Shown: piece by piece, positions 1,735 to 63,985 of the stretch
Layout of the letters: the number at the start of each line of letters is the position of its first letter
How positions within the stretch are numbered: the first letter of the stretch is position 1
NCBI GenBank assembly: GCA_037893245.1
Contig: JBAIAA010000893.1
Location: forward strand, 248,001-312,000
Reading direction: 5' to 3'
Length of the DNA stretch: 64,000 bases
From: Crossaster papposus
Lineage: Eukaryota > Echinodermata > Asteroidea > Velatida > Solasteridae
Notes under the pieces: generated by a model
Databases searched by the model: none
Told to the model about the DNA's origin: nothing
What the model saw: the letters and a program-made list of their open reading frames with translations, nothing else
Made by a program: the position numbers and the translations under genes

Positions 1735-12533
<10,799 letters not shown>

Positions 12534-32405: not shown

Positions 32406-34559
32406 GATATTTTACATCAGACTTTCATTATTGACATTACACTTGGATTTTTATTGAAGTATCTTTCTATGGGAGTTCATGGTATTTTCCCTTGGGGTTT
32501 GGCCACATGATGTCATTATCGAATTAGCATGATATTGTGTAAATTGGGGCTTTCCTTTTCTCCCAATAAACATATTTTGTTTAAACGTTACAGAGAGTTT
32601 GGTTTCTTATCATAAACGAATGGGGTCGCATCTTTGCCCTAGTTATGGACACGCTCTGCTTCTTAGAAAGTAAACTATTTATATCTATGTATTTAATATT
32701 CATGAGACTCCTTGGCAGTGGCTAGTTCTTTTGATGGTTTGTTATTAGATGTGTACAGTTAGTAGCCATAATTAGCATACATTAGCATAAATTTAAATAT
32801 TTGTGACGTATTGCTTCATTCTAACCAATGGGTATTCCTGCTCATGAATATTTATCAATGTCGTATTATAGAATATTCAATTTCGTGTATTAACTAGTGA
32901 CTTAAAAAGCCGATTTTAAACAGCTCATTGTAACAAAAAAATATGTGTGCATATACTTTTCCTCTCGTATAAATGTTACTTTTTAATTTATTAGCATTTT
33001 AAAAATTATTTTATTTACATGTATGTATTTGTAGGATATTACAGTATTTTTAAGATGTGTATAGAAACGTCATATGTACAAACAGTGATTAGTAGGTAGG
33101 CTATTTGTAATAAGGTGTTAATTTCATCGTTTTGTTCCAGTCCTGATAATTGCTTTAAAGGAATTTACTTGGTTTTGCCACAAAAATGTTAGCTGCAAAA
33201 TGAGCATTTGAACTCCTCCCAGACTTCCCTAGTATGTAGTTGCATGCAAAGAATTTAGTCAGTCACCTCTACCAACGCTTCTTTCATTCTGAGAAAAAAA
33301 CATATTTTTATTTTTCGTCTGTTTTTGGTTTTTTGTTTGTTGTGTGGCTGCCTTTTAGTCGTGACAATTTATCTTTTATGTACCTCCTTTTGCACAGTTA
33401 TAATGTATTGTAATGTAGTTTTCTAATTCTTACTTTCTAAATTTTGTTGACCGTCGAAACAAAACATAGGTTTTAAGTTTAGATGTACCACGTGTAAAAG
33501 CAATAATATTCGTAGTTCAAAAATAAAAAAGTAAAAAGAAAACAGTACTCCTTTTTTATTGTACTTCGTTGTCCATTTGATCAGATTGTACCGAAGTTAC
33601 TTTTTATCTTGCGTATGTGTAGAATTTCCTCTTGTAATTGTGATAAGAAATGTTCAACTCATTGAGTCGGTGAACTTTTTATGTTAATTAGCTTTGCTAC
33701 TGTTTATGCATGAAGCTTTGCTCGCTCTGATTGGTGGAAAGTTTAACCACGCCCACAATTAACTCATTTACATTGTGAGAAACTGGTGCTTTTGCTTACA
33801 TAATGATCATGTGACATGAAAGAATTGATATCAAGATTATTATTAATATTATTTCAATGTTTGTACATTTGACTTACTATTATACTAAAGATGTTATTTG
33901 ACCATTTTGATTAGCTCGCACGGCTAAACGCGAGGTGGGACACTTTTTTAAGTTGTCCTTAAACACGACTCCGAATATCATGCAGGTTACCATTCTCATT
34001 GCGAGCACCAGGGAAAAGTTAAGTTGCAATATAATCATTAAAACGTAACTTGTCAGTAAAAACCGAAGGCAATAATATTGAAACTGTAGGATTGAATTTA
34101 TATTGCATCGGAATTTACTCGTTATAAGCGTCACAACAACCATGTATTCACATTTGTGTATTTTATTTTAAACTTATAATTTATACAATTATTTTCAAGA
34201 TGACACATTGTATATGCATGGAATACTAAGCTTTTAAAAAGAAAAAAATGTTTTCAATATGTTTGGACAAGGATTGCAAAGGATTGTTTTAAGAGTGGTT
34301 GAAGAATGAATTTAAGTTATTTAGAATTGTGTAGAATCGTGTGAATAAACAAAAACAAAAAAGTGATTATTGAATAGCGTACTGTTGAGAACAGCAGAAG
34401 AAAATAAATTAAGCCTAACAAATGATGTGGCTTTGTTTTTGTTTGTTTTTTACTTGTTTTTATTTATTAATCAAAATTGGCCCAAATTTGATTGTTCTTG
34501 GAAACTACATATTATTTGTAAAGATAATTAAAACTGGCAAAAATGTCACTTTTTCCAAA
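32406..34559. other. intergenic AT-rich region, no gene seen
   Basis: Contains several AATAAA motifs (for example about 32563) that could end a longer TnI 3' UTR. No coding exon, tRNA or clear repeat family was recognised. Confidence 0.4.
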
Positions 34560-36360
34560 AATTAAAAAAGGGTTTAGCCTTGCATTTTTACTAAACTTGG
34601 CCATAATTTGACTTAATTGGAAAATTAAAATCTGTAAGTGGTCAACCTTGCATTTTTACCAAAAATTGCCAATAGTTGACGTTTTGGAAAAAATTATTGA
34701 AAATTATTAATTGTAAGAGGTTAGCCTTGCATTTTAATTAAAATTGGCCAACATTTGATTTTTCTTGAAAATTCGAAATAGTTAGGGGTTAGTCTTGCAT
34801 TTTTATTTGAATTGGCCCATATTTGAATTTTCTTGAAAATTATTAATTTTTAGCCTTGCATTTTAATTTAAATTGGCCAACATTTGATTTTTCTTGAAAA
34901 TTCGAAATAGTTAGGGGTTAGTCTTGCATTTTCATTAAAATGGGCTAAATATTAAAATTTCTTGAAAACTCAAAATTGTAAGGGGTTAGCCTTGCATTTT
35001 TAATAAAATTTACCAACATTTGATTTTTCTTTGAAATTCAAAATTGTAAGGGGTTAGCCTTGCATTATTACCAAATTTAGCCCAAATATTACTTTTTGGA
35101 GAAATAAAATTGTAAGGGGTTAGTTAGCTTTGTATTTTAACCAAAATCAGCCAAACTTTGAATTTTCTTGAAAATTTACAAGTGTAAGGGGTTAGCCTTG
35201 CATTTTCAATCAAATTGGCCCAAATTAGATTTTTCTTGAAAATTCGAAATAGTTAGGGGTTAGTTAGCCTTGCATTTTTAATGCAAATTACCAACATTTG
35301 ATTTTTCTTGGAAATTCATAATGTAAGGGGTTAGCCTTGCATTTTGATTTAAATTGGCCCATATTTGAATCTTCTTGGAAATAATTAATTGTAAGAGGTT
35401 AGCCTTGCATTTTAATTAAAATTGGCCAACATTTGATTTTTCTTGAAAATTCGAAATAGTTAGGGGTTAGTCTTGCATTTTTATTTGAATTGGCCCATAT
35501 TTGAATTTTCTTGAAAATTATTAATTGTAAGGGGTTAGCCTTGCATTTTAATTTAAATTGGCCAACATTTGATTTTTCTTGAAAATTCGAAATAGTTAGG
35601 GGTTAGTCTTGCATTTTCTTTAAAATGGGCTAAATATTAAAATTTCTTAAAAAAATTGAAATTGTAAGGGGTTAGCCTTGCATTTTTAATAAAATTTACC
35701 AACATTTGATTTTTCTTTGAAATTCATAATTGTAAGGGGTTAGCCTTGCATTTTAATTTAAATTGACCCATATTTGATTTTTCTTGGAAATTATTAATTG
35801 TAAGGGGTTAGCTTTGCATTTTATTTAAAATTGGCCAACATTTGATTTTTCTTAAAAATTCGAAATAGTTGGGGTTAGCCTTGCATTTTCATTAAAATGG
35901 GCTAAATATTAAAATTTCTTGGAAATTTGAAATTGTAAGGGGTTAGCCTTGCATTTTTAATAAAATTTACCAACATTTGATTTTTCTTTGAAATTCATAA
36001 TTGTAAGGGGTTAGCCTTGCCTTTTGATTAAAATGAGGCAAAAATATGATTTTGTTCCAAAAATGTCTTAAATCAGACCATAATATTGTACAAGGGGTTA
36101 GCCTTGCCTTTTGATTAAAATGAGGCAAAAATATGATTTTGTTCCAAAAATGTCTTAAATCAGACCATAATATTGTACAAGGGGTGAGCCTTGCATTTTT
36201 ATTAAAATTAGGCAAAAATATGATTTTGTCCGAAAAATGTCTTGAATCAGACCATAATATTGTATAAGGGGTTAGCCTTGCATTTTAATTTTAATTGGCC
36301 CATATTTAAATTTTCTTGGGAATTATTAATTGTAAGGGGTTAGCCTTGCATTTTGGCCCA
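34560..36360 (+). repeat. ~70-bp satellite array, about 26 units
   Basis: The anchor phrase GGGGTTAGCCTTGCATTTT recurs about every 65-75 bp, 26 times, with linkers such as CCAACATTTGATTTTTCTTG. Near 36010-36270 a longer variant unit (about 85 bp, TATGATTTTGTTCCAAAAAT) is itself repeated three times. AT-rich and non-coding. Confidence 0.9.
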
Positions 36361-45775: not shown

Positions 45776-45781
45776 TTTATT
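45776..45781 (-). terminator. polyadenylation signal (minus strand)
   Basis: TTTATT on the plus strand, that is AATAAA for the minus-strand gene, about 213 bp past the stop of the troponin T-LIM gene. Confidence 0.5.
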
Positions 45782-45993: not shown

Positions 45994-48900
45994 CTAATGC
46001 CTGGTCCCGATGCCTTGCTGAAGGCTTTCGCGTTCCACTTTGCGCTGGTGCGGTTTACAGTAGATCTTGCCGTCAAACAAAGCGTAGTTGGACAAACTGG
46101 ACCCAAGACAAAAACAAAAAACAAAAAATCAAGAAGCTGTAAGATTACCGAGTCAAAATCTTCCTAATCACTGCGAAATTTCCCCCCAAAAGAAATTGAT
46201 TGCAGTTTGCGCCGTTATATCAGAATTGAACCAACAGGATGGCCCGGAAGCGAGTTGAGTGGATTACGCTCGAGTTCAGACAGGCGTTCCACAGTCGCTG
46301 CAAACCAAATGAGTGAATTAAGTCCGACGTCTGAAACGAATAAGGGCGACAAGGCACGCCAGACGGCAAACGATCGACTGCTTGAGTTGTTAGAGTGACT
46401 CAGGAGCGACTTGATTTCAAATTGGTTCGGCGCGACTGTGGAACGCCTGTCTGAACCGAGCGTAAGACATCTGCACCAATAAGCAAGATGTCCTAGGTTC
46501 AAGTCCCACAGAGTCAAGTGTCAAGTAGGTAAGAGTATTAAGGTAGGTCGAGTCTATTTATAAACGAATATAAATATTCCCGGTCGTTTCACGCTAGAGA
46601 AACTGGGAGGTAAATACCGGCCCGATGAGCCATATTTGCTCGGGACAGATGTTGCTTGCTTACCTGGTGATCTTCTTGCAGTATTCACATTTGAAGCACA
46701 GCTTGTGGAAGAGTTGCTTGTCCACCTCCAGACGTTCCTGGGTGTAGACATTCTTGTCGCAGATGCTGCACTTGTCGTACGTCGGTGCCTTCCAGGGGGA
46801 ACGGCCAGACTAAAAAATTAAGAAAAGAAGATCAAAAAGACTGTCAAGACTGTGTTTTTTTCTTCAAAACCTTTGCTTCGTTTACGGCTTCGCCTCTCGA
46901 AACACTTAAAAGCAAATCACAGTTCAATTGCATAAAAGATCTAGATAGCTTTCTCAATGATAATACTTTTCATTTTTTCAAAGTTCTTGTTACCTTTTTG
47001 ATATCAGGCTGGTCTTCTCCATGATCTTTTTTATTCTGGAACATGGTCAGTCTGCCTTGCACCCCACCGCTGGCCGCGATGCCCTCATTGCGCTCCTGCA
47101 GAAACGACTTCTTCACAGGCTGTCGCAAGTAAAATGAAACAGAAAATAAATATCGAACAAAATCTGTAGATCCCGTGATGTTCTCTATAGCAGCGTTCCT
47201 CTGTACTACAAAATACCAGAGTTGTATTCGAATCCCTGCAAGTCCTTGCACAAGTCCTTGCACAAGTCCTTGCACAAGTCCTTGCACAAGTCCTTGCACA
47301 AGTCCTTGCACAAGTCCTTGCACAAGTCCTTGCACAAGTCCTTGCACAAGTCCTTGCACAAGTCCTTGCACAAGTCCTTGCACAAGTCCTTGCACAAGTC
47401 CTTGCACAAGTCCTTGCACAAGTCCTTGCACAAGTCCTTGCACAAGTCCTTGCACAAGTCCTTGCACAAGTCCTTGCACAAGTCCTTGCACAAGTCCTTG
47501 CACAAGTCCAGTCACAAGTCCAGTCACAAGTCCAGTCACAAGTCCAGTCACAAGTAACTGGTTGAACAATGACAAAGGAATGCTTTTGTCTAAACTCATT
47601 TGAATAGCTTGTGATTTGAATTGGAACTGGAGGACTTGTGATGGACTTGCAGGGACTTGCAGGGACTTGTGATGGACTTAACTACATCCCTGGAAAAATA
47701 CCACTCAATTCTCATAGGCCATCATCCTCATCCTCAAAAACTTATTTGGCCTTATTCTTTATTTTTTTAAATAAACATTGGTGTGATCAAGATGGAGGTC
47801 TTTCAAAAATTGTTCTTACCTTATCTTCAACAAAGAAACCCTTCTCCTTGATCTTGTTGACAAGTCTAAGGATGAAAATAGTAAGAACTAAAAGACAGAT
47901 CCAGTAATTTTTAAGACGTTAGAACAGTCTTACTCAAAACCTAGGTGAATAAGATTAAAACTGCTGCAAACTGCTTACTGGCTGGAATGACCTGAAATAT
48001 ACAAATCAAATAAGTTAAGAGGGCCTAATATTTCGATCTTAACAAGATCTTCTTCAGAGACATATAATGGCTGTGTACAAGAAACAAACATATAGGGCAA
48101 CATACAGCATGATGTACATCATAGCTGGCGGGAGAAACACAAAAGAAAAAGCACAGAGTCCAGTGAAACAATCAACAAAAGGAGGATTAGGCTGAGGGAT
48201 CAAAACCTAGGTGTTACGAGTATCTAACTGAGATGGTGTCGGACAAAGTTGAGATTTCACATGGAATGACCCACCGTTAATCGTATTAATTTTCAACACT
48301 TACCCTGTGTCAATGGTGGCCACGAATGGTTTCTTTGGAGTGCTGAAAAAATATATAAATAATAAGCGAAAGTTTGAACCATATGCAACGGAACAAAATT
48401 ATTTGTTCTATCTTATTGATTTTTTTTTTTTTTTTATTATTATTTATAGGTAACAGAAAATGACCCAATAATGTTTGACTGTGTTTTTTCAGATTACACA
48501 TGTAATTTAACATTAATTTTTAACTTTGACAAAATTAATTTAAAAAAAAATCACATTTTGTCACCGGTATTTTTCATCCAAAAAATACCTCAATACAAAT
48601 TATACATTTTCACTTTAAAATATTATTGTTTGTAGGATACAAACGTACATAAAAACGTTTATACAAAAAAAATATAATAATAATATTACCTCACTTTGGA
48701 CAAGTCTCCAATCCTGGAATTCAGTTCAGTCAACTAAAATGAACGGGCAAAAAAGAGAGAAAAAAATACTGACAAATGCTGTAAAGTATCCAACTTGAAC
48801 CAGTTCACGCCGGGATTGTTATGACAATGACTGGGCCCATGCGCGGAACTTTCGTTAACAAGACGGGTTCAGGCTGATGTTTGTGGATAGCACACCCTGA

Positions 48901-51900
48901 TATTTCCGGCCTCGCTTGCTGCGAGCTTGGGCCAATTTCATAGAGCTGCTTAAGCAGAAAAATTTGCTTAAGCACAAAACTCTTGCTTATTAAAATAAGG
49001 TTACAAGCAAAAATTCCACGTGATTGTTATGCTAAGCTAAAAACAAATGATGTACATCACATGGAGTTGTGGCTGTTAAGCTCATTTTACTAAGCAATAA
49101 AGTTTTGTGCTTAAGCAATTTTTGTGCTTAAGTAGCTCTATGAAATTGGCCCCTGGTCGCCGACAGATATTTCATGCCTTGGTCGTGACGTATTTATATA
49201 CACGTCATCTGGTTTTATTTAATTCTGGACAAACTTTGCGTTTATACACGTCATCCAACACGAACTGGTTAATACAAATTCCGCGACTTGCGTGTCGCCA
49301 AGCCACAAGTCAAATACACAACCGCACAGAAAATATAATCATTTGCACACAACAACATTGTGGTAATCATTCAATAAGTACACGACTCATAGATTGTAAT
49401 CGTGATAGATTGCGTCGAATCCTGCGGCGTTCAATTTACCGTGTACACGGTAAAACCCGTAAACATTTCCTAATGGTTCAATCAGAATTCCCATACAACT
49501 CCCTGGAGGTCAAAGGTTATGGGTTAAACTTACATCATACTCCTGGCGTTGTTTACGCTTCTTGAGGTCAAATGTAGCCCCGTACAACTCCACGAGCTTG
49601 GCCTACGAGACAACAACAAAAAAGCAATACCAAAACCTACAAAATTAGGCCACCAATAAACTACCCGTTGAGGCCTATTACCAATCCATCTTTTAAAGAA
49701 GAACATCTTAACCTATGGTACCACCCCCACCTTAGTTTTTGAAAACATTGTTCTTCCATATTTTGTGAAAATTTGATTTCATTTTGTGTAAGTTGTTTGG
49801 CAGTGTTGTTTTGGACAAGCCACTTCATTCCATTTGCCTCTCTCAAACCAGGAGTACACAGGGGTACCTCCGTTAGTCGAGGAGTGGTAGTAGTAGTAGT
49901 AGTAGTAGTCCGTCAAAACGACGAAGACATTCTCCCAAATCTCCAGGTCGAGGAGTAACCTGCGATGGACTGGCATCCCATCCAGGGGGAAATAGAAATA
50001 TTCTTGCGACAGACTTAACTTACTGCTACAGTACAAGCAAAACCAAACAAAAATTTTCAAGAAGCTAGGATTAAGGAAGATTTGTGATTAAGAACTCGCC
50101 TGAAGAGCAAGAGCCAGTTCCTTGAGATTCTCTACGCTGGTGTTGGTCAAGCTGTCCAAGGGAGGAATGCGCTCTTCCAGGACACTAGCTTTCTGCTCTG
50201 CTAGCTCATCGAGTGACATCGACTTCTCCTTTTCAGCCTCGAGAACACTCTCCTAAAATATCAAATTACCAGAGAAAGAGAGAGAGAGATTTAGAGAGAT
50301 GTCCAAGGGAGGGCGCACTCTGCCAGGACCCTATGTCTCACTGCAACTATGCGCAGCCCTACAACCAGATTTCAACAAGGACCAAGTTTAAGGATCTCTA
50401 AAGCAGAGACGTTTTCGAGTATTTAAATTCATCCGATGAGAACGTCTTACCGAGATGCTGTAATTTGGCCCGATGTAGCTCAGCGAGTTCTGGATGTTGC
50501 GACGGCGCTCCTCTGCCTCCTGGCGACGCTTTTGGATCTCCTCCCGCAACTTCTTGGCTTCCTCCTGCAAAAACAAACACACACACAAACAAACAATATG
50601 TCACAATCCAGCATTTGCTGCAAACTCTGGTCTTTTTTGTGTGTGTGCCATAAATACCACTAGGTCATTCTGTGTCAAATCGAAATAAATTGTTCACCCG
50701 ACCCTCGCAGATTGAAATGACATTTGGTGTTATGATTGGCCTTTATATAAAAACAAAAACGCAACAAAATGACCTTTGACTTTGATTTATAAAAATAAGT
50801 ATGATATATTTTGTTATTTTTGTGTGTGGATGAATCTCAAATCTGTATCTTATCCTAAGACTTACTGCTTCCCGGACCTGCCTCTCTTCCTCTTCTTGCT
50901 GAAGACGACGTTCCTCGGCCTCCTGCTTTAGCCGTCGTCGCTCCTGAAAGATCAAGACGGCAGGACCAGCGCCAAGTCAACGAGAGCCAAATCTAATTGA
51001 TCCAAAGTTCATTCTGACCATGGCTCAATTTCTTGGTTCTGCTAATACTATCAGTAAAAAATCCCTGCTTACTGCTAGCAGAAAATTCCGTGCTTATGGT
51101 AATTTTGGGTTTGTGGCACGCATACATCCTGTATCTATTAAGATTCTGTGCGTACAAGGTTAGTGCAGAATATTTCTGCTAATGCTGTTAGCGCAAAATG
51201 GTAATCGTAAGCGCGAAAACTGTGGTTAGCACAAAATGATTAACATTGTAAGCAATCTTTTCCATCATAAAGATTTCAAGGCCTTATCATACCTTGCGTT
51301 CTTCCAGCTCCCGTCGTTGCGCTTCACTCTGCTCCTTCGCCAGGCGGCGTTCCTCCATAAACTCCTTGTGGCGCTCCTCATTTTCCTGCTCCCGTTTCAG
51401 TCGGATCGCCTGGTGGAGAAACCAAGACAAATTTACTGTCAATTTAAAAATAGCAGTCACAAAACTCAATCGCAAGTCAAATCATTAGTGTATCACAAGA
51501 TCAGTCATAAGCAATCACAAGTCCATCACAAGGAAAATCAAAGATCAGTCATAAGCCATCCCAAGTCCATCACAAGGAAAATCAAAGATCAGTCATAAGC
51601 CATCCCAAGTCCATCACAAGGAAAATCAAAGATCAGTCATAAGCCATCCCAAGGCCACCCCAAGGCCACCCCAAGGCCACCCCAAGGCCACCCCAAGGCC
51701 ACCCCAAGTCCACCCCAAGTCCACCCCAAGTCCACCCCAAGTCCACCCCAAGTCCACCCCAAGTCCACCCCAAGTCCACCCCAAGTCCACCCCAAGTCCA
51801 CCCCAAGTCCATCCCAAGTCCATCCCAAGTCCATCCCAAGTCCATCCCAAGTCCATCCCAAGTCCATCCCAAGTCCATCCCAAGTCCATCCCAAGTCCAT

Positions 51901-54900
51901 CCCAAGTCCATCCCAAGTCCATCCCAAGTCCATCACAAGTCCATCACAAGTCCATCACAAGTCCATCACAAGTCCACCACAAGTCCATCCCAAGTGAATT
52001 TCTATAAAAAAGGAATGTCCTGACTACATCGCGACATGGCTTGAGACATAAGGATTGCGACAGACTTGTGATGACTTGCGAACATTGGCTTAACTACAAC
52101 TGTACCTCAGCTTTGAGTTCGGCTTCATTGAGTTCCACCTTGTCTTCAGATTGTTCCGTTGACATCCTGTCGATTGTGATGAAAAAACAAATCCCACAAA
52201 AATCTAAACGAGCGAATTAAACACCGTCTCGCAAACAGTAATTTAATGATGTGCTGTGTTGTTGCGGAAACTATACGGACCTTCAAAAGTGGCGCAAAAA
52301 ACAGTGTTAATACACGTAGTAAAATAGTTCTACGTGTAATTTTGTTGTGAAAGTAAAAGGGCCTGCGATGTTTACGTGAGAAGTTTTACATCCTGTTGAA
52401 ATCTAAATATCTTGTTTCGACCAAAATAAAAGTGAAACTCACCTAGTAGGAGTCTTTTTCTGCAGAGAAAGAAATGAAATAAACAGTTTTAACATTCCTG
52501 TTCATTAAATGTTCGTTTAAAGGGATCGTATACGTTTGGTAATTACTCCAAAGAAATTATGGCAATAAAAACTTACTTGGTAAGAAGTACAGCAGCTTTA
52601 GATAGTATAATGCATTTTTAGAAACTGTTCACTTCGAAGTACTGCAGTTATGGAAAAAGATGGCACTTTTTATCGCCAAAAATTTGAATCTGAGAAGCGT
52701 TACTGCAGTGACGTTTCTCAGATTGTGTATTCCAATGCAGATTATTCTTCCTGCGTGGACATAACCGCTGCAGATTTTAGGCAATATCTCAAAATTGCTA
52801 CCACCTTTTGAAATGAAATTTTTACAGGTTAGTTTTATGGTATACTATAACTATATAGGTCTGAAACAAACAGTGGGTTCCAATTACCAAACGTATACGA
52901 TCACTTTAAATGTTCGTTTAACCCTAACGTCTTAGGCATTTAATTGGGGTACAGTACACAGTACTACAAAAATACTACACTATTCCCATAGGCCAGTGTA
53001 GTAAGAGTACTGCATACTGCATTTTACTCTAGTAGTATTTTGTAGTATTGGGTGATGTTAGGGTAAAACAAATGATCATGCGATTTCAGCCTGCAAAAAG
53101 TACACATTGTACATGCATGTTGGCGACTTGTTTCGACACAAATGTGGATAACAATGATTTTACAGAGAAAATGGGTTAATTATGTGCATTAAAAGGTAGG
53201 ATACACCATTGGTAATTGCTTGAATTATCATGAATGGGTGGATTTGTTTTTTTTAATTTTTGTAGTAAATATCTTTTAACTGACCTGTCCGAAGTTTTAC
53301 AATCTTATGTTGTTATTGGGTATTTTCGCGATCGCCGTCTGGCGATCGTGAATATTTTTTAAGAAGATTCATTTTTTCGGAACAATTACAGGATATCTAG
53401 CGCAATCATTATTTACTTTCAAATAAGTAAGATATTTCGTAATAATTTGGTAGTAAATTTTTCAGAGATCTGCAAATGGTGTATCCTACCTATGTACAAA
53501 ATCACACTGTGGTACAAAACACATCAAGCTTGACGATAGGGTGCTGAAGTGTTGAAAAGGAGAAGGGGGGGGGGGGGGGGGGAGGAGAGGTGCACAACAA
53601 TCTCGTAATTAGTATGTAAGCTCGACAAAGAACGTCAGAACTAACGTCGCGCTAAATTAAATTGTATTATTAAACACGGCATAAGTGCGACGTTTAATTT
53701 GAAACAGGCTTTAGTTTTACAAAATGTCAGAATGTCAGTTAACACACTGTCAGATGTGAAATCAAGCAAAAAATTTGTTAAAGTGTGAAACTACCAATAT
53801 GGGAACAGCGTGAACTTTGACCTACAAGTAGTTTATTGATAGATTCCTCCTCCTCACTTGATTGGTCGTTGCTCTGCTAGGGAATAGTAATGGTTCAAAC
53901 CAAATCAAAATATATATATTCATGATTATAACTTATTTTTTGCAGAAATGTCAATGATTTCATTAGCATGCTAATTTAACAGCTTCTTTTATTTTCAAAC
54001 GAAAATTTACCACTTTTGTTTTGTGTCAAAAGTAAAGATCTTGTTAATATTATTGATTTTAATTGTTCCTGCCCCCCCCCCCCAAAAAAAAAATCCCACA
54101 AAAGCCTAGTCTGGTTCCCTGAACCGATTGCTCCTTTCATCTTAAGTAGGATCAAGGAGCCAGACTACAACTACAAGAACATTTTTTTTCAGCATCTATA
54201 TAAAAAACAACAATATACTTTTCAACAGATAATTGTAACAATATTTTTCTACAAAATATCAGGGGGGGCGGAAGGGGTCCCAAAAAAGTGTGCCACCAAC
54301 GTTGAAATGTATCTCATTCATTCTTCCACGCTCACGAGTCGAACATCTCATACAGTAAACACGTATAGATCGCTACCTCGAAGCGCACCATTGAAACACG
54401 TACAAATTTGCTCCGTGCATCTCTCCCGAATTCAGTGATTTATGCTACGTCCGCAAAGCCAGATTCGTACAGTACAGGCAGGCGTAAACTTTCGCGATTG
54501 AGAATTGGCAGAAATCATTTTCAAAAACAAATTCAAAAAAAAAAGGTCAAATATCCAGAGGATGTACCGAGGAATTTTTATTTAACTTTCAGGAATGAAA
54601 GATCTACATGTATTCCTAATTATTACGTTAGTGGAAAAAAATCAGAGGATGAACGATAATTTTTTTCACATTATGTCGATATTTGTAGCCATTTTAGGGG
54701 AGACGTTTTGTAACGAAATTCCCACCTGGACCCATTCATACACGTTAGCTGCTGCAATAAACGGAAAATTGTCGGTAATATTTGTACGCATTTTATTTAA
54801 AACTAAGCACCTCAACAATTGAAAATACTCTTTCAATATAAACTATTATGTTTTCAGTGCTGTTAAAGAGAAAATGTTAACAGTATACATGGATTATTTA

Positions 54901-56462
54901 TTTATGTTTAATGGTCATTACCTTTTTTTTAAATGGAGTGTACCCAAACTGCGATTGCAAATTATTGCGCAACACCCCTTCCGCCCCCCCTGCAAAATAC
55001 TCAACTCCAAATCCAACCATTTCTGAAAATTACGTCAAAATAAAATATGTCGAAGATTACCTTCAACGTGTTTAAGCTGCGAACCATTATTTTGCCGTTT
55101 TATTTTAATTGTAATTTAAGGGGCAAAATAAAATGCAAACAATAATTTGCAAAACACAATTTTGAAAATTTTCAAAATTTTCAAAACTTACCAATTTTAC
55201 TTCGATTTCTGGACCCGATTTGTGAGAGCTACGGAATGAGGTCACTCGGACTTCAGCACTGTGTACAGAATAAAGAGAAGATTTGTTTTTCTGTTGTTAT
55301 TTTTTGTTTTGAAGATAAGAATGTAGCCTTAGGCTACATAAAAAAAATGAATTGTTTCTCATCAGAACCTTTTTGAAAAAATGGTCCGTCAGGGCATTTT
55401 ATATTTTATATTTTATAGAATAAAAATGTCGCCGAATCTTTGAAACCGCGGTATCTGACTAAACAACTACAGGCGCGCTGGTTTCGTTCGTGCCTACCGC
55501 ATATACATACATGTGTACATGTACATGTTGATGAACCGGGCGTTGGTGGTAAGCGCTGATGTGCATTTAGCTCTGATTGGATAATTTTTGTTGCGACCTG
55601 CGAACGTAGGTTACTACTTCCGTGGCTCAGCTGCGCGGCAGAGCATGTACGCTACCCAGAATGCCGCGCGTTTTTCTACACAGAAATCTATGAAGCTCGT
55701 CAGGTGTTTTCCAGCGCCCAGTTATAGTATGGGCGCCACCGCGTGCGGGGGTGAAAGCGCTAGTTGACAAAAACTTCGTTGGGACATTGCATTCTTTATC
55801 TAAATTACAAATTGTTTTCGTTGATTTACTTTCCAAAACTGACCAATGCACACATTTCATATATAATAAAAGCTCAAATAATGTTGGTAGAAACACACAA
55901 ATATAGTTCAGTCGATTTATTTTCCCATATAATTTTGAGCACCCCAGGTTTTTTTAATGAAAGAGGCCCACAGACACCGTTCTCACTACTATTATACTCG
56001 GCTTCTCCGATCTCCTGTCCGCCGTCGATTTAGATTTTTCCGGCTTGCTTCTGCTGGAACATGTATGGCCACTAAAAACATTCACTTGGACCGCGTGAGT
56101 TTTAACTGTTATTGCTTTCAACAGCGTGTTTTTACAGCATATACAAAATTAAAAAAATTAAAATCTCAGAATTTTCGGGCGTCCGGTACATTTATATTTT
56201 GTTTATAAAATATAAAAAAATATCCACCCGGCACGAAAAATTGGCCCGGCCGCTGATGAGAAACAATCAATTTTTTGTATGTAGCCTTATAGGAACACCC
56301 AATCAACACCAACTACACGTAGGCCTACCAATTTTAAAAAAAGTAAAATACAACTTACATTTCACGTTCTTCTTGCTCTTTCTCTTCAGCGCGTCTGCGG
56401 CGACGCTCTTCCCGACGTCTGGTGCGCTCGTCTGCTGAATTATCGTAGCCCGCGTCACCCAT
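45994..56462 (-). CDS. troponin T-like protein fused to a C-terminal LIM domain
   Basis: Minus-strand exons: 56359-56462, 55192-55258, 52443-52459, 52106-52166, 51293-51409, 50866-50943, 50451-50564, 50100-50252, 49534-49602, 48690-48733, 48304-48342, 47820-47865, 46994-47119, 46664-46809, 45994-46096. All phases agree; about 427 aa. Residues 84-186 are a charged coiled coil (tropomyosin-binding type) ending [17 protein letters not shown]. Residues 187-275 match the TnT IT-arm region ([34 protein letters not shown]). TnT anchors troponin to tropomyosin (family knowledge). A linker (about 276-345) leads into a complete LIM domain with zinc ligands C359, C362, H380, C383, C386, C389, C407 and H410. 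LIM domains bind protein partners, often at Z-discs or actin. One intron (after 50100) has a GC donor. The second and third exons are the weakest calls; ATG at 52165 could be an alternative start. Confidence 0.82.
46265..46463. repeat. ~200-bp MITE-like element (family I, copy 2)
   Basis: ACGCTCGAGTTCAGACAGGC at the left; CGCCTGTCTGAACCGAGCGT at the right. Homologous to 2542-2731. It lies in the intron that splits the LIM domain. Confidence 0.75.
47213..47690. repeat. foldback element with minisatellite arms (copy 2)
   Basis: The left arm (about 47230-47553) is about 23 copies of the 12-bp AAGTCCTTGCAC plus four AAGTCCAGTCAC units. The core with AACTGGTTGAACAATGAC matches copy 1. The right arm is short (about 47632-47680, GGACTTGCA twice). 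Expansion is on the left here and on the right in the copy at 3304-3840. Intron of the TnT-LIM gene. Confidence 0.88.
48797..49272. repeat. family A MITE interrupted by a nested family B MITE
   Basis: Outer ends AACCAGTTCACGCCGGG and CACGAACTGGTTAA are family A. At 48928-49155 a complete family B element (GGGCCAATTTCATAGAGCTG, complement ending CTATGAAATTGGCCC) sits inside. Intron of the TnT-LIM gene. Confidence 0.85.
51480..51995. repeat. 11-bp minisatellite with graded unit variants
   Basis: About 28 units of an 11-bp repeat in ordered blocks: AAGGCCACCCC (about 51653-51705), AAGTCCACCCC (about 51706-51807), AAGTCCATCCC (about 51808-51928), then AAGTCCATCAC (to about 51965). It is preceded by longer repeats of the TCAGTCATAAGCCATCCC type. 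Related in motif to the AAGTCC arms at 3.3 and 47.2 kb. It lies in the TnT-LIM intron between exons 52106-52166 and 51293-51409. Confidence 0.88.
52517..52909. repeat. MITE family E, full copy
   Basis: TTAAAGGGATCGTATACGTT at the left; CGTATACGATCACTTTAA at the right. Same family as 13177-13580, in opposite internal order. A 16-bp direct repeat TTAAATGTTCGTTTAA is at 52505-52520 and 52906-52921. Confidence 0.85.
52918..53066. repeat. MITE family G copy
   Basis: TTAACCCTAACGTCTTAGGC, then GGGGTACAGTACACAGTACT; right end TAGTATTTTGTAGTATTGGG then GTTAGGGTAA. It starts in the flank of the family E copy. Confidence 0.75.
53189..53494. repeat. MITE family F copy, inverted
   Basis: TTAAAAGGTAGGATACACCA at the left; AAATGGTGTATCCTACCT at the right. 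The interior matches 20567-20956 in reverse, including the CGCGATCGCCGTCTGGCGAT hairpin. Confidence 0.8.
53495..55191. other. long intron of the troponin T-LIM gene
   Basis: Contains a G-run (about 53563-53582), a C-run/A-run (about 54071-54092) and AT-rich sequence. A 140-aa frame at 54016-54438 shows no recognisable features. No further exon was identified by phase and similarity. Confidence 0.4.
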
Positions 56463-57665: not shown

Positions 57666-58964
57666 TGCGCTCATCACCATTCAAGATAGGAGCGGTCCGA
57701 ACATTGTGTTGTCGGCAGAGGGCGGTATATAACTTTAACTGAGGCTGCATCTGTGAGGCGAAAACAACAGGGGGGGGGGGGGGGGGAACCGTGGATTTTT
57801 AGGAATGTGGAAAATGCGTGGAAGATGGTAAAGAGAGGCAGCGAATGAGTATAGGTGTGTTGCTGGCTATCTGACTGTCTTATGAAGTTGAGTTAGCGTA
57901 CAAGAGAATATCGACAAGGGAACATCAATCGAGGTAAACTATAACCCTTTTGTTTTAGTTTTGTGTGTAATTATTCTCAAAAACTAATGGTGATCTTATT
58001 TTTTTCTGGGAAATACAAAAGTGCCGAACGCTTTATTATTTTCATACTGCAGTACGATTCCAAAAATTATTTTAAGTTATAACATAAATCTGCACTCTAC
58101 GTTTTAGTTGTGAAATGCCATTCCGAATCTAGGAGCTTTATTCGCGGTTTTTAATGTTCTTGTTATCCTATAATTATGATAATCGCGCACGATTGAGTTT
58201 TCAAGTCAACTTCAGAATGTACAAGTTATTAAAGATAATGAATTTCAAAAATTTCCGTTTTTCTTTACTTGAATGCAAACTTGGCCCTTGCAGATATTCA
58301 GTATACTTACGTTAACTAGATTATTTGGTTTTTAATTATAGTTATTGCGCGTGCATGCATAATATTTTTGGGTTGTATTTTTTATGGTAAAAAACTGTCA
58401 CATTTATTAAGAGAAAAAAAAGACAAACACAACTTTTTTAAGCATTTTTTTTTTGAATCTGATTACCTGAGATTAAATACAAGGTTAAGTGCATTTTTGT
58501 TTCTTACAATTATTTATTTACAAAATAATTAATAATATCAATAAAACTAGTTACTATTTGTGTGTGAATCCCTCTGGTAATTCAACAGCACGTACAGCGC
58601 GTACACTGCTGCCCAAATATGGAGCGCTGCTGTTCGTGAACGGCGCTCACAGTCGCATCGCATATCTCAATTGGCGGCTTGATCACACGTCTAAAGACCT
58701 TGAGTTTATTAAAGCTGTATACCTTGTGTTTGATTTTTAACGATCGAAAAACTACTTTATTCCAATTTAAGTTCGGCTTCTGAAACCTAATGAAAAAAGG
58801 GCTTTCATTATTTAATGAGAGCCGATTGTCTGAAAGCCAATAATTATTTCTAATTATTTTTAAATATATTAATTAAACGTTGGCAAAATTTTTGGAAGTA
58901 TTTTTTCTGTTTACCTTATACAGCTTATTATTGTCAATCGTTGTAACAGCAGAAGCAATTCAAC
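57666..58964. other. spacer between divergent troponin T genes
   Basis: Holds a G-run (about 57771-57786) and AT-rich sequence; presumably the promoter and 5' UTR of the second troponin T gene lie here. About 60 bp before its ATG the sequence becomes less AT-rich. No element could be assigned. Confidence 0.35.
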
Positions 58965-61900
58965 ATGGCGGCTCAAGAAGGGTAAGATATCATTATTTTT
59001 GTCGTGTCTTTTTCCCTTTTTTTCCGTAAAAGTTACAGTCGCCAGATCAGAGGGCGGTGTAGGATTTGACATTCGTCTGTCGCGCGCCGCCCTTATCAAA
59101 CTTAAAATAGTTATGTTATACTATCCTCCTTTAAACTTGAGACGTGGAGCCTGAAATGTACGGAGCTCTGGAAGTGCCCTAACTTCCCTAAAAATCACAC
59201 ATTTGTGCCTATAATACACTCATGAACAACATAACATTATCTGGTTTTTAGGTTTGAGGACAAAATTCTCTTACAATTTTTTTGATTTTGATAAGGGGTG
59301 GATTAGGTCAAATAAAACAAATTAAAAGTTGTTCGTCCTCGCGCGCATCCCTTTTTTGCTGACACATTATTAGGTTCTAGGAATTTTGTTTATTACAAAA
59401 TAAAACATTTCAGTGTGAACAAAGAAATCGACAAGGCGGGACTTGAACCTGCGACCTCCGGAATACCGGACCGGCGCTCTACCAACTGAGCTATCTTGCA
59501 CTACCTATGTTGGCGGTCTCCAACTAATTGTCAGTATCTTTGTCCGAGGGCGCTAGTCAGAAGTCACAAACACCAGAATTATGTGTGGACAGGGATCACG
59601 CCCAATTTTACAATACAATCTTGGGAGCGAAATTGCCAATATTTTTGTTCAATTTGAAATTTATGCAAATTTACCTAGTCAGTTTCCATTGTGGTTTATT
59701 TGTAGGCCTATATTATATTTTTATTTTTTTATTTTTTTATTTCAGTGAAGAACCGGACGCCTTGGCTATCATCAAGGTAATCAGACCAACTACAAAGAAT
59801 AACCTTCTAAAGTTGTTTTGGAAGACAACATTGACAGTATTATTACAGTGTTATAACTTTGGCCAAAAAACTCATGTGTCCGATTTCAATATGCGTATTG
59901 CGTTAATTACCAGTGTGTATAATAATACGTGAATGTAATCTGAAAATCCACGTCACACTATACGGACGTAAAAGCTTAGGCCTAAATTGAGAGTACGAAG
60001 CAGTTTTACGAGCATGGAAAACAAATCATATCGAGTCTCAATCGGATTTGGATTAGTATGGCAAAGTACACATTTTACGAATTAAACAATGACCACTCCC
60101 ATTTATGTGCCCTTCCTCCGGAAAATTAAGATCCCGCAATTGCAACAGTTATGCAAATGTGTGCCTAGTTATGCCGCTGATGAGACAAATACATTTATTA
60201 TAGAAAGTAGTCATCGCTCAAGATGGTTCAATGTTATCTTCTTAGTTGTAATGAATATGCAACGAAAGTAGAGCCACGCCCATTGTTACTGTCTTGACAG
60301 GGCAACATAGTCTTGGTGCAAGACGTCCCTGTTTCCACAAATTTCCGCTAATAGAGGGCGCTATCACTCCACCAACCGCTATGTGATCGCGGTTCGTGGG
60401 TGATAGCGGTTGGTGGAGTGATAGCGCCCTCTATTAGCAGAAATTTGTGGAAATACAAAACAGGGACGTCTTGCACCAAGACTAAGGGCAACACAGCAGG
60501 CGATACGAAAACATTACTCCGCGGAACACTTTAGTTAATGCATAGTTGGTCAATGCATGCACAATTATTCTGTCAGCCTGTATGTAAAAATGGCATAAAA
60601 AGGGTTGTTGCTATACTCCTTTCTATTTCTAACCAAATGGTCCAATCAGAGGCTAGTTAAGATGACAAAGGTTAAATGACCTCACGCAACTGAGCTATAG
60701 TGATTGGCCAAATTGCTCATTGGACAAGTCTCTTCCATTTTGGTCCAATCAGGAACAAGCAGAGAAGAGGCGCGAGGAAGTGAACACAGAGCTTCGCGCA
60801 GCGCGGGAAGAATATCGCCGAATGAATGAAGAGAAGGATAAAGAATTGCAGGCCCTTCGCGCCAGAAGAGTAAGTTTCTAGCTACACATCAGTCACATCA
60901 TAATGCCGTACGACTATTTACTAACAGACAAGTGTATTTCATAATAATTCAGCAATTTTGCTTTTCGATGTTTTTAAGATGGCGTATACCACCTTTAATC
61001 TTTCAGGACGAGCGACGCAAACAGCAGGTCGAGGAGCGCGCGATGCTGGAGAAGTTCGCCGTGGAGAGACGGGCCAAGGAGAAGGAGGAGGCACGGAAGA
61101 GGAAGGAACTCGCTGAGGAGAAGAAGAAGGAACGAGCGGCTCGAGTCAGGGCCATGCACGACCCCAATGCATTTAAAGCTGTCATCGTCGAGGTATACGA
61201 CCGTTTCGGTGTTTTTTCCCCAATCCAATCGCCTTCTTATTTATACCACAATTGTGACCCAGCACGAGTAAATGAGACACTTTGAGGCAAAAATGAAAAT
61301 TGAGATTTTGATTTCATCATTTAAAGCTTGTTGAGCTTTAAACGATGAAATCAAAATTTCAATTTAAATTTTTGCCTCAAAGTGTCTCATTTACTCGTGC
61401 TGGGTCACAATTTACAAAAAAATTGTATGTTTTGTGTGTATAGCCTACAATTTAAGATGTGCACGCGGAACTTTCTTCTTGAAAAAAGACTAAACATGCA
61501 AATGCGGTGTGCTCTCTAAATGTTAAAGAGTGAAAAGTAAAGGATTTAAATCGTGAAAGAATCTCTTATAAAACCACTCAAAAAGAGTGAAATGAAGTTT
61601 TTGTTTAGAGTAAAAAAAACAAACTATTACTCTAATGGCTCCTCGAGAGATTTTACTCTTTTGATTTTCACTCGTTTTGGAGTTTTGGTTTTTATAAGAG
61701 ATTCATTTTTTCTTTAAGTGAGCCTATCACTATTTTACATTTAGAGTACTGCTGGTAAATATTACCAATAATATTTGCTGATATTTTGAGGCAACAGGTT
61801 CGTCGACTTTTTTTGTATTTTACGCAGACCTTTATTTTGAACAAATTTAGAATAAGGGTTCTGGGTCATTCTGACCTACAAGTTTTTTTTTAGAGTGTGG

Positions 61901-63985
61901 ATGGTTCAGAATATTTCTTCTACTTTCTTGGCACGATAACATTGTCCTATCTTCAGAAGGAGAAGCCGGCGCAAATCAAGAAGAAATCTTCAGAGGAGTT
62001 GGCCAGCGAGAAGGAGGAAGCAATGAAAAAATGCATTCAGCCTCTGAACGTCGGTAAGAAGTATATTCGGTGGAGTGTCGTGGCCGAGCGGTTAAGAGCT
62101 AATTAAAAAAGAGCCAAGCGACGGGTACCAATTTCATGGAGCTGCTAAGCACAGGAGCATAACAATTCTTCCTTGGCAAAATATTAAGCTGGAGTTTTGG
62201 CTGGTAACCTGTTTTTAATGAGCAAGACTTTGTTTGTGCTAAGCAAATTTACGTGCTTACATGTTTTATGAAATTGACCGTTGATTTTAAGGGTTTCTTA
62301 AACATTTGGGGGTGATTTTTACTCTTAAGGGGCCAGCATGGGCGAGGATAAGATTCGAGAGATTGCTCGCAACCTCCTGCAGCGTCTGCAAACCATCTAC
62401 GCAGACGTCTTTGACATGAAAGTGCGCCGCAAACGCCAGGAGTACGACGTAAGTAGAAGTACACAAACCGTGCATGACAAACAATCATACGGTAAAAAGC
62501 ATTTTGGATGTAGTGTATTCCGCCGAACAAAATTAGAAACCGTTTTTTGCGGTAATAAAACATGTTAAAAGAGAGCCATAATTATTACAGAACAGCCCCG
62601 TATGTAAAGCTTTAGCTCCGCCCATCTTTGGTTTGTGGACATAGGGCCTTTTCGAATCCCTGGCTTCATCTTCGTCTTTGGCTTAAGGCGATTTTTGACT
62701 CCCAACTGCAAGATCTCCAGCCACATTCTGACACCTGTTGTGCTTCAGAAACATTCACTCGAGTGATGTGAACCCAAAAGTTAGACTATTTCAATTTTCT
62801 TCCATTTCTATTTGCTTCTCAGTAATTCGGAATTCGGAGGCGGAGGCGAAGCCAAAGCCAAAGACGAAGCAACGGTTTCGAAAAGGCCCATAGTATCTCG
62901 TGGTGCATGTGACCTTTGGCTACTATGGTAACCTGAGAGTCGTGATGTAATTGGTCAAAGTAAAGTGTTTGATTGACAGGCAGAAAACCTTTAGCGAGCG
63001 CAGGCTATAATAAGTTACAACAAATAAAACGGTTTCTGATCGTATTATCTGCTGATTATAAGCAATTTGTATTAATATATTCCGGTCGTCCCTTATTTGC
63101 ATACTATCAATATTCATTATCCCCTCCCCAGCACAAGGAGCTAATCCAGCGCATTATGGATCTGACGAAGGTCAAGGAGTGAGTATAAATTCAACCAGAA
63201 ATATAATTACACACACAAAACTAATTACAAAACCAAACGAGATAATCTGACTTCAGAACACTTTCTTGAATACAAAAATGCATCCTCATTAAGGAAGGGG
63301 TTTAAACGACTGATGGAAAAATAGAAGAGAAACTAAATAGAGGTTAGAGGTCATTGGTTGCTAAGCTATACTCATGTATTATGCATAAGATGCTGTAACC
63401 AATAGAAACCAGCGAAGTTTCACTGATTGTATTTTTCATCCGGGCTTTTAAGCCTAGGCTACTTTTTTGACTTGGCAAATAAAGGTAACCAGCGAATTAC
63501 CACACCCCACTGTTGTAAAAAAGTATCTGGTTCCCATTAAACTTGCATTTGCACGATTATAAGCAAACTAATGTGCAATGTGATTTAGTGAAAGTGTTGA
63601 CGCCTTACCGAAACGAATGACGTCACCGGGCCTCAGAAATGCAAATTAAAACAAACTTCTGAAGGGTACATTACATTTTCTTTGTGAACAGCAACGTATA
63701 TACTATGGTGGCTCTGAAGAGACATCACAAATCGCGACTATTTAAGGTCAATATTTGCGAATGAGGCCCAAGACATTAATTTTGTTAACGCCAATACTAA
63801 CGTCAATATATTCGCAATTCGACACGTCCCTTCAGCCGAGCCATCATTCAGGTCCGTACACTGTTCTTATTTCTGATTCTTATTTTGTTCTCCATTTTTC
63901 TTTCGCCAACAGGCCTCATTCCGCTGAGTCAGCTGGCACGTACGTATATCACACAGCGACAATGACAAGGGTGACAAGGACGTGA
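58965..63985 (+). CDS. troponin T-like protein, second gene, probably 3'-partial
   Basis: Exons: 58965-58981, 59746-59776, 60753-60869, 61007-61192, 61957-62053, 62330-62448, 63132-63178, and a candidate from 63913 running to a TGA at 63983-63985. Phases agree. The start MAAQEGEEPDALAIIK is acidic. Residues 17-117 are a basic/acidic coiled coil (LQALRARRDERRKQQVEER, EKKKERAARVRAMHD) like the TnT tropomyosin-binding region. IQPLNV and the IT-arm helix MGEDKIREIARNLLQRL, then DMKVRRKRQEYD and LIQRIMDLTKVKE, follow (about 143-205). It is paralogous to the minus-strand TnT-LIM gene, with which it shares RQEYD at an exon end and a phase-2 intron a few residues after DLTKV. Reading through the donor at 63179 gives an immediate TGA, an alternative short end. 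The last exon is uncertain (GTACGT in it could be a donor), so whether a LIM domain follows outside the window is unknown. Confidence 0.8.
59428..59500 (-). pseudogene. tRNA-like sequence (pseudo-tRNA or SINE head)
   Basis: The A box TAGCTCAGTTGG and B box GGTTCAAGTCC are present and the overall 73-nt spacing fits, but the acceptor stem has several mismatches (TGCAAGA against CTTGTCG), the base before the anticodon is C instead of T, and no T-run follows. It lies in the first intron of the second troponin T gene. Confidence 0.65.
60308..60484. repeat. 177-bp palindromic MITE with 9-bp target duplication
   Basis: Starts TAGTCTTGGTGCAAGACGTC and ends with the exact complement GACGTCTTGCACCAAGACTA. 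Arms of 74-82 bp, loop about 20 bp (60383-60402). Flanked by direct repeats AGGGCAACA at 60299-60307 and 60485-60493. The only clear asymmetry is about 8 extra bases near 60452. It fits a hAT-type non-autonomous element (8-9 bp duplication; inference). Confidence 0.9.
61253..61409. repeat. near-perfect palindrome (family C, copy 2)
   Basis: TGTGACCCAGCACGAGTAAA at the left, exact complement GTGCTGGGTCACA at the right; same family as 18432-18591. It begins 61 bp after the donor of the exon 61007-61192. Confidence 0.9.
62079..62115 (+). repeat. truncated tRNA-like SINE head
   Basis: GTGTCGTGGCCGAGCGGTTA then AGAGC matches the head of the SINE at 2767-3060 and stops abruptly at TAATTAAAAA. Confidence 0.6.
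62125..62281. repeat. MITE family B, internally deleted copy
   Basis: ACCAATTTCATGGAGCTGCT at the left; TGTTTTATGAAATTGACC at the right; about 157 bp instead of about 240. It ends about 48 bp before the acceptor of exon 62330. Confidence 0.75.
62642..62895. repeat. repeat family J relative with inverted termini
   Basis: AGGGCCTTTTCGAATCCCTG and CTTCGTCTTTGGCTT at the left; AAGCCAAAGACGAAGCAACG then TTTCGAAAAGGCCCAT at the right, complementary. Confidence 0.65.

Follow-up and report, generated by a model that had tools for sequence, protein, structure and literature searches.

A sea-star gene whose predicted product joins a troponin T-like IT arm to a LIM domain

Introduction

Can a troponin T (TnT) carry a LIM domain, and what would such a protein do in muscle? 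The question is raised by a 64,000-nucleotide stretch of DNA from the sea star Crossaster papposus (GenBank assembly GCA_037893245.1, contig JBAIAA010000893.1, forward strand, positions 248,001 to 312,000; hereafter the window), in which an initial annotation placed a TnT-like coiled coil and a complete LIM domain in one gene, here called the LIM-TnT gene. Its gene structure, its domain homology and its conservation from the coiled coil through to the C-terminus across four sea stars (C. papposus, Patiria miniata, Asterias amurensis and Acanthaster planci) are established. We consider the locus to be, more likely than not, a single sea-star gene for a TnT-derived thin-filament protein, the C-terminus of which is extended by a linker and a LIM domain of the EPLIN/LIMD2 type.

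Results and Discussion

The LIM-TnT gene has 16 minus-strand exons between 56462 and 45994, spliced in phase throughout to encode 443 residues: a basic N-terminus, a long coiled coil, a TnT IT arm, a 72-residue linker and one complete LIM domain, in that order. Splice acceptors are AG in 15 of 15 cases and donors GT in 14 of 15, the sole GC donor following exon 9 (50100). The initially proposed junctions 48690/48342, 48304/47865, 47820/47119 and 46994/46809 are all exact in the spliced model, and the claim of a phase-matched run of five exons beyond the IT arm into the LIM domain is borne out, with phases in agreement across the 16 exons. The proposed length of 427 residues did not stand: it results when exon 3 (53873-53826, 48 nt) is left out. 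This exon belongs in the model because Patiria and Acanthaster carry matching residues; Asterias is without the stretch. The exons are listed below with the supporting evidence in brackets, followed by a possible poly(A) signal.

56359-56462, minus strand: exon 1, start codon and basic N-terminus, residues 1-34.7 (N-terminus similar in three sea stars and in the Saccoglossus protein P0006)
55192-55258, minus strand: exon 2 (gene model, sea-star alignment)
53826-53873, minus strand: exon 3, acidic (present in Patiria and Acanthaster, absent from Asterias; apparently omitted from the initial 427-residue model)
52443-52459, minus strand: exon 4, a 17-nt micro-exon, KKTPTR (gene model, sea-star alignment)
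52106-52166, minus strand: exon 5 (gene model, sea-star alignment)
51293-51409, minus strand: exon 6, TnT1-type coiled coil (sea-star alignment; helix in the Patiria AlphaFold model)
50866-50943, minus strand: exon 7, coiled coil (sea-star alignment; helix in the Patiria AlphaFold model)
50451-50564, minus strand: exon 8, completing the long helix (gene model, sea-star alignment)
50100-50252, minus strand: exon 9, beginning of the IT arm, with the GC donor (gene model, Pfam, PDB search)
49534-49602, minus strand: exon 10, IT-arm helix, ending in RQEYD at phase 0 (gene model, Pfam, PDB search)
48690-48733, minus strand: exon 11, completing the IT arm and ending at phase 2 (gene model, Pfam)
48304-48342, minus strand: exon 12, linker (gene model, sea-star alignment, linker identity)
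47820-47865, minus strand: exon 13, linker (gene model, sea-star alignment, linker identity)
46994-47119, minus strand: exon 14, linker, with a stretch weakly like the C-terminal end of troponin I (TnI) (hhalign and shuffles; the PDB profile search speaks against it)
46664-46809, minus strand: exon 15, WKAP and the start of the LIM domain with six of eight ligands (gene model, Pfam)
45994-46096, minus strand: exon 16, end of the LIM domain with the last two ligands, C-terminal tail, TAG stop (gene model, Pfam)
45776-45781, minus strand: AATAAA, possible poly(A) signal 212 nt beyond the stop (position computed from its offset)

Tandem arrays of similar-looking 10-12 bp units occupy 47239-47545 and 51644-51995, in introns 13 and 5 of this gene, and a third lies at 3572-3825; two of the three have a CAAGTCC/GGACTTG core.

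Is the IT arm that of a TnT? The Pfam cut-offs are 26.2 bits for Troponin (PF00992), 22.9 for LIM (PF00412) and 50 for caldesmon (PF02029). A Pfam HMM search on the spliced model found both expected families, Troponin at 26.9 bits, barely above its cut-off, and LIM at 34.7. The Troponin score is 27.6 in Acanthaster, 23.2 in Asterias and 18.7 in Patiria, so that two of the four sea stars, the window included, pass; the window protein and that of Acanthaster exceed the cut-offs of both families. When a 119-residue piece (IT arm and start of the linker) was searched against the PDB, cardiac TnT was best with an E-value of 1e-4, and the best TnI chain reached 0.024. In hhalign, the four sea-star proteins aligned to seven TnT or TnT-like proteins with a probability of 98.7% (E 2.6e-16, 173 columns) and to TnI with 65% (E 6e-5, 52 columns), an uneven contest in which a seven-protein profile faced a single TnI. 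The seven comprised four vertebrate TnTs and three others, one of which (P0019) has no listed Pfam domain. Judged by these alignments, the IT arm resembles TnT more than TnI, in support of the TnT-type arm that was initially proposed.

With TnT (PF00992) the protein shares a long, charged coiled coil and, behind it, an IT arm of the pattern RQxYDL..L..R, kept here as RQxYDL..L..RI.DL.K. It differs by adding the 72-residue linker and the LIM domain, and by being without the vertebrate TnT1 core stretch; the four aligned vertebrate TnTs end soon after the IT arm, and the three TnT-like proteins have other tails. The hemichordate TnT-like protein P0006 of Saccoglossus (LOC100371934) resembles it in the basic N-terminus and the IT arm, and is 29% identical to the Patiria protein over a 257-column BLAST alignment. 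P0006, the one member read of a cluster with 42 others, is different in having 388 residues and no LIM domain found by Pfam scan, and the linker profile did not match its tail (hhalign probability 0.05%; shuffle p 0.105). The charged coil also scores weakly for caldesmon (window 11.9 bits, Patiria 11.8, Asterias 21.8 with an E-value of 9.1e-5, Acanthaster 17.3). Membership of that family was rejected: these scores are far below 50 bits, and the linker compared with two caldesmon C-termini stays at shuffle level (p 0.20 and 0.95). A search of NCBIfam gave nothing informative.

The LIM domain is complete, its eight zinc ligands following the initially described spacing C-X2-C-X17-H-X2-C-X2-C-X2-C-X17-C-X2-H at residues 375-426. 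Among single-domain matches to known structures, EPLIN scores 61.9 bits (5.1e-16), LIMD2 53.2 and CRP1 29.5 and 28.0; by sequence the domain is thus nearest to EPLIN and LIMD2 among LIM domains of known structure. These two rank first among LIM matches in both sequence and fold, but the TnT part was not seen in them. Xirp2 was one of the profile-search matches; its LIM domain continues into FKQLFKSKGNYDEGFG (P0008), which is absent from LIM-TnT. Our literature search on LIM domains, strained actin and EPLIN found no paper.

AlphaFold, run on the Patiria protein with a four-sequence alignment, predicts helices at 36-65, 127-228, 235-246, 250-264 and 276-322, then a stretch with pLDDT under 50 at 330-408, after which the LIM domain follows. 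The linker is conserved and probably unstructured. In Foldseek the best match to the whole chain was the EPLIN LIM domain (E 8.7e-4), the sole match under 0.001 among the best 50 of 100 (E up to 10), which were chiefly LIM and other zinc-binding structures.

How widespread is this arrangement? Residues 195-443 searched against about 5.8 billion proteins gave three matches among 4575 candidates, all from sea stars: P. miniata (85%), A. amurensis (72%) and A. planci (67%). The window protein is nearest to that of Patiria among the three. The public names of these relatives are 'troponin T, cardiac muscle-like isoform X2', 'uncharacterized protein' and 'vicilin-like seed storage protein'; TnT-LIM sequences are thus already public, but named inconsistently. 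The same TnT-then-LIM order, which the initial annotation had proposed to look for in related species, is found in single predicted proteins of Patiria, Acanthaster and Asterias, aligned through the five exons beyond the IT arm. Across linker and LIM domain these three align without gaps save for two one-residue insertions in Asterias, an agreement beyond chance. In the linker (residues 291-362), identity is 65/72 to Patiria, 60/72 to Asterias and 46/72 to Acanthaster; in the IT arm it is 80/100, 60/100 and 66/100, respectively. Two of the three relatives thus match the linker more closely than the IT arm, and the third matches both about equally.

A profile search listed 16 proteins, and a trimmed profile at E up to 1 listed 12, both scoring only the candidates that share most words with the query. 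Among the listed matches, TnT and LIM were joined only in the same three sea stars, as counted from listed Pfam domains and names and from Pfam scans of P0001-P0003, P0006, P0009 and P0018. The other matches among the 16 were LIM proteins, caldesmons, one TnT and the hemichordate TnT P0006, which is without LIM; the trimmed profile brought up P0006, troponins, and P0017 and P0019, neither with a listed domain. In P0017, an open reading frame from ENA, the matching stretch departs from the LIM-TnT protein right at the end of exon 8. No relative from sea urchins, brittle stars, sea cucumbers or crinoids surfaced in the protein searches, the profile searches being limited to the most word-sharing candidates. 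Kept in all four sea stars compared, the LIM addition shows that a core subunit of the muscle switch can gain a domain of the actin-scaffold type.

What could the protein do? The likeliest reading is that it serves the thin filament as a subunit derived from TnT, with a LIM docking module of its own, in a troponin system that has no troponin C (TnC). By analogy with TnT, the long charged coiled coil would lie along tropomyosin-actin; given the homology of the IT arm, its helices may pair with sea-star TnI; and the LIM domain, as a member of an actin-associated class, could attach this complex to actin itself or to a partner that anchors actin, for example a dense body. No TnC would be needed for the complex to work. 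Sea-star muscle is mostly not cross-striated, and attachment of LIM-TnT to a Z-disc, as first suggested, is doubtful for that reason.

TnI and TnT have been reported in Ambulacraria, and no TnC, in PMC5341096 (for sea urchin), PMC5888912 and PMC10951248. Yaguchi et al. (2017, PMC5341096) report TnI expression in the larval muscle of sea urchins and describe this TnI as missing the TnC-binding switch region; they also report a sea urchin genome without TnC and an annotated TnT gene, SPU_006532. The 2018 study PMC5888912 describes TnC as missing in all ambulacrarians analysed. With TnI and TnT reported there but no TnC, a TnT with a built-in LIM domain bears on the way troponin acts in Ambulacraria, and as a definite protein it can be purified and assayed. 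Block of FGFR in Patiria lowers muscle-related genes including 'troponin', subunit unspecified (PMC10170166), and a table in a study of starfish coelomic epithelium includes a troponin I-like protein (PMC9630195). The available portions of these five papers do not mention a LIM domain on TnT, and those of PMC11925454, PMC5167519 and PMC4582948 contain nothing on a TnT-LIM fusion. No description of such a fusion was found in the literature covered, which was mostly open-access, without bioRxiv preprints, and judged chiefly by title.

Several points weigh against a troponin subunit of this kind. The product is a predicted one, and its binding steps are inferred from homology. The Troponin score falls under 26.2 bits in Patiria (18.7) and Asterias (23.2) and only just exceeds it in the window (26.9). 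The vertebrate TnT1 core stretch is absent, though the region aligns and a long helix is predicted. Confidence of the AlphaFold model is low (mean pLDDT 62, pTM 0.24), and relative domain placement is therefore meaningless; no troponin was named among the best 50 of 100 Foldseek matches. Finally, a second TnT-like gene next to LIM-TnT might be the working TnT.

Could the protein, then, be derived from TnT and yet no longer be a troponin subunit? It might bundle or anchor actin in the manner of caldesmon or EPLIN, leaving the troponin role to the neighbouring gene. The head-to-head position of that gene, the sub-threshold Troponin score in two of four sea stars, the caldesmon scores of the coil (up to 21.8 bits, in Asterias, against a cut-off of 50) and the nearness of the LIM domain to EPLIN all point this way. 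However, the IT arm continues to match TnT better than TnI and keeps its RQxYDL..L..RI.DL.K pattern, and the second gene also stays under the Pfam cut-off (21.1 bits) and is placed on a long branch (1.68). We regard this explanation as doubtful, though one to be taken seriously.

Rather unlikely, in our estimate, is that one gene makes two products, a short conventional TnT that ends in intron 11 and a longer form with the LIM domain, with intron retention or polyadenylation at an early site deciding between them. Translation continued beyond exon 11 yields KVR before a stop, and a single AATAAA stands at offset 251 of the 347-nt intron, so that a short LIM-less product appears possible from the sequence; the AATAAA lies in an A-rich stretch, however, and may be there by chance. 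Each of the three relatives is labelled as an isoform in some source (X2 in Patiria and Acanthaster, X1 in Asterias), and further isoforms are therefore likely annotated, but a separate short sea-star protein was not found in protein searches, in which clusters at 90% identity could hide one.

Does LIM-TnT merge the functions of TnT and TnI? Such a protein would combine the TnT coil and IT arm with a linker motif like the end of TnI and a LIM latch, in a switch that has no calcium sensor of its own or is run by calmodulin, with a head-to-head TnT pair under one muscle control region; the linker motif G-V/M-Q-x-R-L-x-M-F would contact actin-tropomyosin. In hhalign a linker stretch pairs with the end of Callorhinchus (elephant shark) TnI, VEAMSGMEGRKKMFDAA, at an E-value of 0.0069 for this single comparison and a probability of 5.6%; we take this TnI end to be the conserved 'mobile domain'. 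For the motif of 17-20 residues, two overlapping TnI pieces gave shuffle p-values of 0.002 and 0.027, among nine target stretches chosen after the motif had been seen in an alignment; the other seven gave 0.105-0.951. The linker profile found no TnI chain in the PDB. The motif is a weak lead only, and we think the merged function improbable.

That two adjoining genes, a TnT and a small LIM protein, were mistaken for one is very unlikely because the linker is 64-90% identical to that of Patiria, Asterias and Acanthaster, and we set it aside on the conserved domain order and linker, the in-phase exons and the same single chain in these three species (themselves predicted proteins), even though the linker has no recognised domain and contains one in-frame methionine, M345, that could act as a start, and the LIM domain is confined to the last two exons.

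The TnT-derived subunit with a LIM module is preferred here, and its neighbour is described in turn. The second TnT-like gene, of which the initial annotation of LIM-TnT makes no mention, lies head-to-head with LIM-TnT, 2.5 kb upstream of it, with 2502 bp between the two start codons.

58965-63178, plus strand: second TnT-like gene, divergent; exons 58965-58981, 59746-59776, 60753-60869, 61007-61192, 61957-62053, 62330-62448 and 63132-63178
63913-63985, plus strand: doubtful last (eighth) exon of this gene, an open frame without homology support
58613-58622, strand not assigned: CArG box CCAAATATGG between the start codons (one site against 0.14 expected per strand in mononucleotide shuffles)

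The seven exons to 63178 encode about 205 residues; the gene may have its 3' end past the edge of the window. Identity is 36% to the LIM-TnT family over 167 columns and 29% to other TnTs over 72 columns. A PDB search ranked TnT best at 3.1e-4, with the best TnI at 0.013; the Pfam Troponin score of 21.1 bits compares with the cut-off of 26.2. In both TnT-like genes a phase 0 intron directly follows RQEYD and a phase 2 intron lies where the IT arm ends, and their IT-arm end exons differ by one codon (44 nt in LIM-TnT, 47 nt in the second gene). In a tree of 14 rows, 4 of 11 inner branches were well supported, and the place of the second gene on its long branch is not fixed.

The CArG box at 58613 is a site of the SRF type. 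Between the start codons MEF2-like matches number three per strand against 0.9 expected, which is weak evidence since they are AT-only or nearly so, and E-boxes are near chance, at 10 per strand against 8.4.

The second gene carries two nearly perfect fold-back inverted repeats that resemble miniature inverted-repeat transposable elements: intron 4 holds one at 61250-61412 (79-nt arms, 95% complementary), and intron 2 the other at 60332-60453 (51-nt arms, 98%). Intron 1 contains a tRNA-Thr-like sequence (59428-59501, minus strand), either a gene or a tRNA-derived element. Below 45.5 kb the window was surveyed briefly as lists of open reading frames. Long tandem arrays with units of 68 and 87 bp extend there over 34697-36290, in a stretch of low G+C content (0.274 for 34001-36000).

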